Assembly (NCBI GenBank): GCA_014359885.1
Contig: JACIYN010000005.1
Coordinates: forward strand, 62,001 to 126,000
DNA length: 64,000 nt
Direction: 5' to 3'
Origin: Desulfacinum sp.
GTDB lineage: Bacteria; Desulfobacterota; Syntrophobacteria; Syntrophobacterales; DSM-9756
The notes below the pieces were generated by a model, which worked only from the letters and a program-made list of their open reading frames with translations, was not told the origin of the DNA and made no database searches. Numbering within the stretch: position 1 is the stretch's first letter; each line of letters starts with the position of its first letter. A program made the position numbers and the translations under genes. Shown piece by piece: positions 25,974-64,000 of this stretch.

Positions 25974-26003
25974 TGTAGGGGCGAAAGATCTTTCGCCCCT
26001 ACA
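25974..26003. repeat. Perfect 30-bp palindrome (half-site TGTAGGGGCGAAAGA)
   Basis: The arms are exact reverse complements with no spacer. An identical palindrome is at 35882-35911, and variants with an AAT centre are the cores of the 95-bp foldbacks at 1440-1471 and 53589-53620. A damaged half copy follows at about 26004-26025. Confidence 0.85.
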
Positions 26004-26060
26004 GAAAGATCTTTCGCCCTTACACAGGGAGAAATCCAGGATCATGGGGGAAATCACAAG

Positions 26061-35881: not shown

Positions 35882-35911
35882 TGTAGGGGCGAAAGATCTT
35901 TCGCCCCTACA
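35882..35911. repeat. Perfect 30-bp palindrome, identical to 25974-26003
   Basis: Half-site TGTAGGGGCGAAAGA is repeated in exact inversion. The sequence after it (GGCCGAAAGAGGTCG) resembles the right part of the 95-bp foldback, so this is probably a degenerate copy. Confidence 0.85.
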
Positions 35912-36022
35912 GGCCGAAAGAGGTCGGTTTGGAGTCAGCCTGCCCGCCCGAGCCCCGTGGCGATCCCGGTCCCAGGCCGTCTCGACCCCGGATAGTACGC
36001 GAAGAAAGAACCTTCCGCCCCG

Positions 36023-47347: not shown

Positions 47348-48073
47348 ATGAAAGACGCAACCGCCGCAACTTTTCAGGAACACACCATCGCCATCTGCCG
47401 GCCCCTGGTGCACGAAATCAACAACGCGCTCACGGGGGTCCTCACCTTTTCCAAACTGGCCGCGCGAAAGGCTTCCGGAAGCGAGCTTCTCCCTCGGGAA
47501 TTTGCGGAGCTGATGGCTCGGTTGGAAGCGAGCGCCCAGCGGTCGGCGGCCCTGGCCAAGGCCCTTCTCCAATGCTTGCCCAAGGCCCCCTTGGCCTGGG
47601 AGCCGGTGGACCTGACCGCTCTGGTGGAAAAGTCGTTGACGGACCCTTCTCCCCTTCCGAACCCTTCGGCCGCCGCTTCTTTTCGAGTGGATCTGGACCT
47701 GCCCCACGAACCGGTTGCGATCACGGCCTGTCCAGACCTGTTGTGCCAAGCCCTGAGGGCCCTGGTCGCCAACGCCGTGGAGGCCGCCCTGGACGCCCTC
47801 TCGACGCGCCCTCCCCGGATCGGGGTGCGGCTGCGTACCGCCGAAGGGGCCGCCCGGATCCGGGTGGAAGACTCGGGACCTGGAATTCCCCGGGATTTGG
47901 GGGAGCGGATCTTTGATCCCTTTGTGACGACGAAGGCCGCTCCGGACCATTTGGGCTTGGGTCTCCATGTGGCGCGTGCAGCGGCCCGCCTGCATGGCGG
48001 GGACGTCCACCTGGAATCCGCCCATGAGACCGGCTCCCGGTTCGTCCTGCGGATCCCCTTGGAGGCGCCCTAA
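47348..48073 (+). CDS. Soluble histidine kinase without a sensor domain
   Basis: The product is 241 residues and consists only of HisKA (CRPLVHEINNALTGVLTFSK near the N-terminus) and HATPase_c (RVEDSGPGIPRDLGERIFDP, FVTTKAAPDHLGLGLHVARA). No membrane helix or PAS/GAF/Cache module precedes the His. Its H-box region resembles that of the divergent membrane kinase at 45217-47211, suggesting common origin. It lies upstream of the NtrC-type regulator at 48603, a possible partner. The stop codon abuts a foldback element. Confidence 0.88.
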   Translation: MKDATAATFQEHTIAICRPLVHEINNALTGVLTFSKLAARKASGSELLPREFAELMARLEASAQRSAALAKALLQCLPKAPLAWEPVDLTALVEKSLTDPSPLPNPSAAASFRVDLDLPHEPVAITACPDLLCQALRALVANAVEAALDALSTRPPRIGVRLRTAEGAARIRVEDSGPGIPRDLGERIFDPFVTTKAAPDHLGLGLHVARAAARLHGGDVHLESAHETGSRFVLRIPLEAP

Positions 48074-48290
48074 GAGGCTTTCCGAAAACGTCGCGGACGA
48101 TCTCTTTTTTCGTAGCGCAGCCCTTGAGGGCTGCGGAAGAACCCCCGGGCGTTGGATGGACCGTCGCGTACTTTCGGTCGTTTCATGGGCTTACGACGAC
48201 CCTTTCCCGCGGGGCTAAAGCCCCGCGGCCACGAGGATGACCAAGATTCCTCGGCCTTGTAAGTCGGAGAACCATTGTCGGACAAGCTCC
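48074..48290 (+). repeat. MITE-like foldback element, copy 3 (about 217 bp)
   Basis: Begins right after the kinase stop codon. Terminal inverted repeats are GAGGCTTTCCGAAAACG at left and CATTGTCGGACAAGCTCC at right. Internal hairpins are GCAGCCC-TTGA-GGGCTGC (48117-48134) and CCGCGGGGC-TAAA-GCCCCGCGG (48207-48228), the same order as in copy 2. Confidence 0.78.
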
Positions 48291-48354
48291 TGGGGGCGAA
48301 TCGGGGGTAATGGGAAACCCCACCGGAGCGCTTCTCTTGGGATGGGGCCCCGAA

Positions 48355-48462
48355 GGGCGGGCGTAAAGCCCGCCCCTACAAGACCTCCGTCATGATGGTG
48401 ACCATGCCCGCCTTCATCAAGAGCGCACTGGCCCCCGGGAGGGGCGGGTTTTACCCCCGCCC
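48355..48462. repeat. Paired hairpin module, long-spacer copy
   Basis: GGGCGGGC-GTAAA-GCCCGCCC (48355-48375) and GGGCGGG-N6-CCCGCCC-type (48441-48462) are separated by about 65 bp. The enclosed DNA differs from the cargo of the copies at 34927 and 53258. Confidence 0.7.
48383..48421 (+). pseudogene. 39-bp fragment resembling the YeiH-family exporter gene
   Basis: Matches 63829-63867 inside the exporter gene at 37 of 39 positions. In frame it would encode TSVMMVTMPAFIK against TSIMMVAMPAFIK. It has no start, no stop and no further similarity on either side, and it lies between the two hairpins of a repeat module. Confidence 0.7.
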
Positions 48463-53560: not shown

Positions 53561-53655
53561 ATGAAACGCACCTTTGGCAAGCAGACCCCTGTAGGGGCGA
53601 ATAATCATTCGCCCCTACAGGCCGCGCGCACGAACGAGACGAGGTCGCGTTTCAT
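53561..53655. repeat. 95-bp foldback repeat, copy 2
   Basis: Terminal arms ATGAAACGCACCT (53561-53573) and AGGTCGCGTTTCAT (53642-53655), central hairpin 53589-53620. The left flank contains an extra hairpin CACGGGC-A-GCCCGTG (53535-53551 region). Confidence 0.82.
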
Positions 53656-62676: not shown

Positions 62677-64000
62677 ATGGAAGAAAAACAGCAGCGGATG
62701 CATGAACAGGACGTGGTCACCGACAAGGCGGTCAGTCGTCTTTCGGACTTGTGGAAGAAGGAGGACTACTGGGCCATCTGGATCGGCTTTTTCCTCCTCA
62801 TCGTGGGCATGATCATCTATCTGCCTCGACCGCCCGCGGGAATGAATGAAACGATCGAAAAGGCCAACGCCGTTTTGGCGGCCGAAGCCCAGCGGGCTCC
62901 CTTCAAGACCATCGAGTGGTATCAGGCAACGGATGCCAAGAAAAAACTCAAGGCCTCCAGTTCGCCCATCGGGAAGGCGTTGAGCCATTTCATGCACAAG
63001 CCCCACGGCTGGAGCACCAATCCTCTGGACGCCTTCTATTTGAGTGAAGAGGCGGCGGCGGCCAAGAAGGCCAAGGCCATGGAAAAGTATGAGGCGGCCA
63101 AGGCCAAAGAGGCGGCGGCTCTGGCTCTTGCCAAGGAAAAGCAGGCGGCGGCGGAGGCGGCCGGGTTCAAGGATGCGGCCCTCAATGAAGAAGCCCGCAA
63201 GGCCATCGGCGAATGGCGCATGGCGCACGACAAGGCTTCTTCGGCCAAGAAGAAGACGAGCGTCAAGCCTTATAACCAGATTCCCTACCTGATCGGCTTC
63301 GGCATCTGCCTGGCTCTCCTGTTCAGCGTGGGCATGAAGTTCATGGGGCATTCCCCGGCCAGGTTCATGGCCGGCTTCCCCCTGGTGTTCCTGCTGGCGG
63401 TGCTCGCCTACGCAGCGGAAGGCCAGGCCACCATGAAGCATTGGGGCATCGGCTATGCGGCATGGGCCATCATCTTCGGCCTGATCATCAGCAACACCGT
63501 GGGAACGCCCAAGTGGGCCATGCCCGCCGTGCAGGTGGAATATTATATCAAGACCGGTTTAGTGCTTCTGGGAGCCGAGATCCTCTTCGGCAAGATCCTG
63601 GCCATCGGCATCCCGGGTATCTTCGTGGCCTGGGTGGTCACGCCCATCGTCCTGATCACCACCTTCCTCTTCGGCCAAAAGGTCCTGAAGATGCCTTCCA
63701 AAACCCTGAACATGACCATTTCGGCCGACATGTCAGTGTGCGGCGTGTCCGCGGCCATCGCCACGGCGGCGGCCTGCCGGGCCAAGAAGGAGGAGCTCAC
63801 CCTGGCCGTGGGCCTGTCCATGGTCTTCACCTCCATCATGATGGTGGCCATGCCCGCCTTCATCAAGGCGGTGGGCATGCCGGAAGTGCTGGGCGGCGCC
63901 TGGATGGGCGGCACCATCGACGCCACGGGCGCCGTGGCCGCAGCCGGCGCCTTCCTGGGCGAACGCGCCCTGTACGTGGCCGCCACGGTCAAGATGATCC
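62677..64000 (+). CDS. YeiH-family putative sulfate exporter, 3' end outside window
   Basis: The visible 441 codons encode an N-terminal membrane helix (about 31-50), then an unusual charged Ala/Lys/Glu-rich segment (about 55-205). From about 205 on lies the multi-helix core of the YeiH/UPF0324 family, including the blocks YYIKTGLVLLGAEILFGKIL, ISADMSVCGVSAAIATAAAC and GGAWMGGTIDATGAVAAAGA. The family is annotated as putative sulfate exporters on limited evidence. The ATG at 62677 has GAAGGAGA upstream and a sigma-54 promoter. The helical insertion is absent from short YeiH proteins. The C-terminus is beyond the right edge. Confidence 0.9.
   Translation, partial: MEEKQQRMHEQDVVTDKAVSRLSDLWKKEDYWAIWIGFFLLIVGMIIYLPRPPAGMNETIEKANAVLAAEAQRAPFKTIEWYQATDAKKKLKASSSPIGKALSHFMHKPHGWSTNPLDAFYLSEEAAAAKKAKAMEKYEAAKAKEAAALALAKEKQAAAEAAGFKDAALNEEARKAIGEWRMAHDKASSAKKKTSVKPYNQIPYLIGFGICLALLFSVGMKFMGHSPARFMAGFPLVFLLAVLAYAAEGQATMKHWGIGYAAWAIIFGLIISNTVGTPKWAMPAVQVEYYIKTGLVLLGAEILFGKILAIGIPGIFVAWVVTPIVLITTFLFGQKVLKMPSKTLNMTISADMSVCGVSAAIATAAACRAKKEELTLAVGLSMVFTSIMMVAMPAFIKAVGMPEVLGGAWMGGTIDATGAVAAAGAFLGERALYVAATVKMI

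Follow-up and report, generated by a model that had tools for sequence, protein, structure and literature searches.

A pair of inverted REP hairpins, located in the intergenic region that separates a histidine-kinase from a response-regulator gene of Desulfacinum sp., carries in its spacer a 39-bp copy of part of the cell's own yeiH-type gene. The presence of this yeiH-derived fragment in the hairpin pair is confirmed as real and well delimited. It is most simply described as a single mutational accident that befell an element of known type, apparently rather than as the cargo of a dedicated capture machinery, and probably results from one microhomology-assisted templated insertion of the yeiH piece at the REP pair, the copy now drifting. 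The window, i.e., the whole stretch of 64,000 nucleotides that was analysed, corresponds to C65:62001-126000 of its own genome (G000) and includes the following features.

48355..48379, minus strand: left REP, comprising a GC hairpin at 48355-48375 (21-nt palindrome GGGCGGGCGTAAAGCCCGCCC) and CTAC at 48376-48379 (GTAG tag on the minus strand); inverted arms, 46 strict copies genome-wide
48379..48382: CAAG, copy 1 of the 4-bp direct repeat that frames the insert, read from the sequence
48383..48421, plus strand: insert of 39 bp, identical at 37/39 positions to the yeiH-type gene (nt 1153-1191)
48418..48421: CAAG, copy 2, shared as a microhomology with the donor (63864-63867), read from the sequence
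48422..48440, plus strand: remaining ordinary REP-pair spacer AGCGCACTGGCCCCCGGGA; the insert-free spacer aligns to 17 others
48441..48462, plus strand: right REP, GGGGCGGGTTTTACCCCCGCCC, with a degenerate GTAG tag; inverted arms, comparison with other modules
62677..64000, plus strand: yeiH-type gene (Cons_hypoth698), sole genomic copy, running beyond the window end
63829..63867, plus strand: donor stretch, in frame, corresponding to nt 1153-1191 of the yeiH-type gene

The fragment and its donor gene

A first-pass annotation of the window had reported that 48383-48421 match 63829-63867 at 37 of 39 positions, with two substitutions. This is exactly the case: both stretches have the same orientation, stand 15.4 kb apart, and an equally good match was obtained in none of 100 shuffles. 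The description of an exporter-gene fragment inside a hairpin pair was equally accurate, as GC hairpins at 48355-48375 and 48441-48462 enclose it. A 31-nt core, searched with at most three mismatches, occurs at only two sites of the 4.33-Mb genome, the fragment and its donor. When a 36-nt pattern was searched in 60 genomes (its own and those of relatives), the single match besides those of its own genome was found in a congener's yeiH, and viral contigs gave no match. Chance similarity or an assembly artefact is a highly improbable explanation. The assembly does consist of 119 contigs with an estimated contamination of 7%, but the shuffles argue against chance, the two mismatches and the exact module flanks are unlike a misjoin, and the site lies in the interior of a 132-kb contig, with flanks syntenic with the congener.

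The donor, which the annotation proposed to seek among yeiH paralogues, is a single yeiH-type gene: its suggested whole-genome search for other copies, performed at the protein level, gave no other match. The product has 584 residues and the Pfam domain Cons_hypoth698. The congener G001, apparently Desulfacinum infernum, possesses a 99% identical yeiH-type protein in the same gene order. At the nucleotide level, 67 of 1755 positions distinguish one gene from the other, with a synonymous divergence of about 0.16, and the 39-bp donor stretch shows no difference between them. At the two positions mismatched in the fragment, the yeiH genes of the congener and of all other relatives alignable there carry the bases of the window gene; thus, both mismatches arose in the fragment. 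Both are transitions, and this divergence (2/39, 5%) is comparable in magnitude to the neutral change accumulated since the species split, with a wide error. A regulatory role of the fragment, antisense or decoy, was considered: no promoter- or terminator-like site was found for it, Rfam gave no match near gathering score, and no function is proposed for the insert.

The same annotation had suggested that a second exporter gene once stood at this place, in which case the fragment would be the remnant of a second yeiH or of an ancient duplication around which REPs inserted later. The 37/39 match itself, and nothing else, speaks for this origin, which is extremely improbable. Indeed, no similarity to yeiH is found around the insert beyond the 39 bp, nor does the match extend as a decaying gene; to the left and right of the insert, the sequence is that of the module's own spacer; yeiH is single in the genome; and the syntenic locus of the congener is without yeiH. 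That the fragment could belong to the repeat family is ruled out as well, as it occurs in no other module.

The REP pair and its family

The REP unit of this genome consists of a GC palindrome of 21 nt that bears a GTAG tag. REP units are associated in pairs with tags pointing inward across a spacer that measures roughly 20-25 nt. About 28 distinct pairs exist in the genome besides the one described here, whose spacer measures 61 nt. A Y1 transposase gene (Y1_Tnp above cut-off) lies at C36:97634-97945, with a REP of this same family on each side and tags pointing outward. Such an arrangement, a RAYT gene bordered on either side by a REP, the two being inverted, has been reported (PMC2817692). 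Based on the REP features, the inward pairing and the REP-flanked Y1 gene, the hairpin module is assigned to the BIME/REPIN class. As in known members (PMC3733652, PMC3116915, PMC8266576), GTAG-tagged palindromes are inverted with tags inward and separated by a short variable spacer, and tens of copies occur together with a REP-flanked Y1 transposase gene within the same genome. The copy under study differs from them in holding 39 bp derived from a host gene in its spacer and in the degenerate GTAG of its right REP. Two published REP surveys mention no Desulfo- species.

Several other elements were observed alongside this family. The locus L042 (G000:C36 ~97500-98055), with its short RAYT-like gene between outward-facing REPs, is a candidate driver of the REP family. 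A second hairpin family is found in the window at 1439-1472, 25974-26004, 35882-35912 and 53588-53621 (e.g., TAGGGGCGAATAATCATTCGCCCCTA at 53588-53621), and elsewhere in the genome it adjoins REPs or makes mixed pairs with them. At L034 (G000:C29 near 99302), half a REP pair is duplicated with a short unrelated sequence between the copies, constituting a rearranged module.

In the congener G001, the region between the histidine-kinase and response-regulator genes contains neither the REP pair nor the fragment, and in another congener, G002, this region is rearranged. Most simply, the pair would have been gained in the lineage of the window and would have received the insert afterwards, the alternative being a loss of the pair in G001. 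The presence of the pair in one genome and its absence in the other fits, without proving it, a mobilisation by a RAYT. The G001 region carries copies of an unrelated repeat of about 230 bp, with more than one copy at the matching site. In the window, this repeat is found at 48069-48298; the genome has about 40 copies with 75-88% identity, and the ends GAGGCTNTCCGAAAACG ... TGTCGGACAAGCTCC suggest short terminal inverted repeats (MITE-like).

Insertion point and origin of the insert

The insert is flanked by the remains of an ordinary spacer, AAG on the left and AGCGCACTGGCCCCCGGGA on the right. Once exactly 39 bp are removed, the spacer reads AAGAGCGCACTGGCCCCCGGGA, a 22-nt sequence that aligns with the 17 spacers compared, its best and mean alignment scores being matched by none of 500 shuffles. 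The sister module L082 displays CTACAAGAGCGC uninterrupted. This normal spacer obtained after removal of the 39 bp and the uninterrupted sequence in L082 show that the piece entered an already formed module. The empty site is deduced from sister modules, because no known strain has an insert-free version of the pair. The statement that the DNA enclosed in other modules is different is not upheld, as the other modules have homologous spacers of roughly 20-25 nt, of which the remains flank the insert here. The layout of the junctions is CTA-CAAG-[ACC...CAT]-CAAG-AGCGC. The right junction has a 4-bp microhomology, because the donor likewise ends with ...CATCAAG, whereas the left junction is blunt and without microhomology.

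A nick, a break or a stalled fork in the palindromic REP pair would free a DNA end, which would pair at CAAG in yeiH (CTTG on the minus strand). Once about 35 nt had been copied, the end would rejoin at this same CTTG, so that a CAAG repeat stands on each side of the insert. The route may be a microhomology-mediated template switch or an end-joining with templated filler, and the 39-bp insert would later have drifted by two transitions. This scheme of pairing, copying and return, deduced from the two junctions, would yield exactly the observed sequence; as the event is single, these two junctions are what the mechanism rests on. The insert-bearing REP pair is predicted to fold as one long hairpin. 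Imperfect inverted repeats are described in one account (PMC7202029) as stalling replication in E. coli and as hot spots of template-switch mutation, and the title of a work cited in PMC8266576 reports that gyrase cuts BIMEs.

Templated (filler) insertions due to MMEJ or template switching are characterized by the copying of a short distant sequence, by microhomology at a junction and by a structure-prone target (PMC12426944). The present case shares these features, with a near-identical site elsewhere in the genome (37/39) and CAAG at one junction and none at the other. It departs from them in that the papers found describe such insertions mainly in eukaryotes, whereas here the event concerns a bacterium and is deduced from one sequence. 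Besides the single event and the deduced empty site, two points were counted against the explanation: according to our own estimate, luck would produce a 4-bp match at one junction out of two with a chance of roughly 1%, and the 15-kb jump exceeds the typical range of quasipalindrome template switches.

An alternative attributes the junction to the REP transposase (RAYT/TnpA-REP), which would have cut between C and T (C/T) beside the left REP and attached the resulting end to a C/T in single-stranded yeiH. TnpA-REP of E. coli cuts at CT located 5' or 3' of the REP (PMC8266576). The Y1 gene between outward REPs of the same family provides a putative transposase for such a reaction, and the minus strands of the target (C/TTGTAG) and of the donor (C/TTGATGAAG) offer a C/T that falls within the ambiguous part of the junction and is 2 nt away from the GTAG tag. 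This C/T is not independent evidence because it lies within the CTTG microhomology. Moreover, the second junction (the insert ends with GGAGGT, whereas the donor goes on with GGAGGTGAAG) displays no C/T on the donor side, and no other module was seen to hold a gene piece. Overall, this origin is unlikely. Its broader formulation, in which RAYTs would introduce host-gene pieces, in single-stranded form, into REP pairs by joining them at C/T and make REPINs occasional traps of gene fragments, is judged rather more doubtful still.

Off-target CRISPR adaptation, by which Cas1-Cas2 would have integrated a prespacer cut from yeiH, was also weighed and appears very unlikely. The genome includes two arrays whose repeats are 36 nt long and whose spacers measure 35-39 nt in one and mostly 36-40 nt in the other, so that 39 bp is within range, although this size range is broad. 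A Cas4-Cas1 fusion adjoins the first array, and TTC precedes the donor stretch. TTC is a common type-I motif, and motifs of this kind are also common by chance. A low level of integration outside arrays is known in vitro, and full-site integration duplicates a target of repeat length (PMC6895254). The spacer-sized insert and the presence of Cas1 and arrays in the genome are in line with such off-array events (PMC6895254), whereas the duplication here is only 4 bp versus a 36-nt repeat, and the target has no visible resemblance to either repeat. The two arrays contain 84 and 40 repeats of 36 nt (L160 1-6200 and L161 1-2900), and other cas-like genes accompany the fusion gene next to the first of them. 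Templated insertion assisted by microhomology is retained as the probable origin of the fragment.

Search for gene capture among REP pairs

The annotation had further proposed that the module can surround foreign cargo and that other hairpin pairs with gene fragments should be looked for. As a general property, this lacks support: the yeiH piece is the sole gene-derived insert in the REP pairs examined by strict and loose searches, and it has not been multiplied with the module. Besides, the word foreign does not fit, because the donor is the cell's own gene. Under strict criteria, no spacer of 43-73 nt was detected in any other pair, and looser searches in three congeneric genomes gave a few enlarged gaps. 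In all-against-all comparison of 275 kb of own-genome DNA, leaving out the pair described here, the unique short pairs were coding paralogues only.

Four enlarged gaps of the own genome were considered as further captures and rejected. Those at C66:50888, C87:15036 and C28:17805 correspond to a different hairpin paired with a REP, the one at C54:15415 resembles two fused spacers, and no donor was found for any of them in the 275 kb searched. The claim of capture consequently rests on one case. The last of these gaps (L194, G000:C54:15415-15475) is a REP pair with a spacer of about 45 nt that resembles a fusion of two ordinary spacers, possibly via loss of internal REPs.

Capture of gene fragments by transposable elements is typical of Pack-MULE-like elements. 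The arrangement described here is similar to such capture in that a gene piece lies between inverted repeats. It differs in that the cargo-bearing element is not multiplied and the insert stands inside the spacer of an existing element; Pack-type gene-capturing transposons are recognised from several elements, each holding a different captured gene fragment, or from multiple copies of a single one, and there is one case here.

This REP pair provides a clean example of the insertion of a short non-homologous copy in a bacterial REP pair, in which donor, target, boundaries and a deduced empty site are all readable. A single case is a curiosity. Should an enrichment of such inserts be observed at REP pairs, it would point to REPs as places where DNA breaks and is repaired from a template or, alternatively, to RAYTs as strand-joining enzymes acting on host genes.
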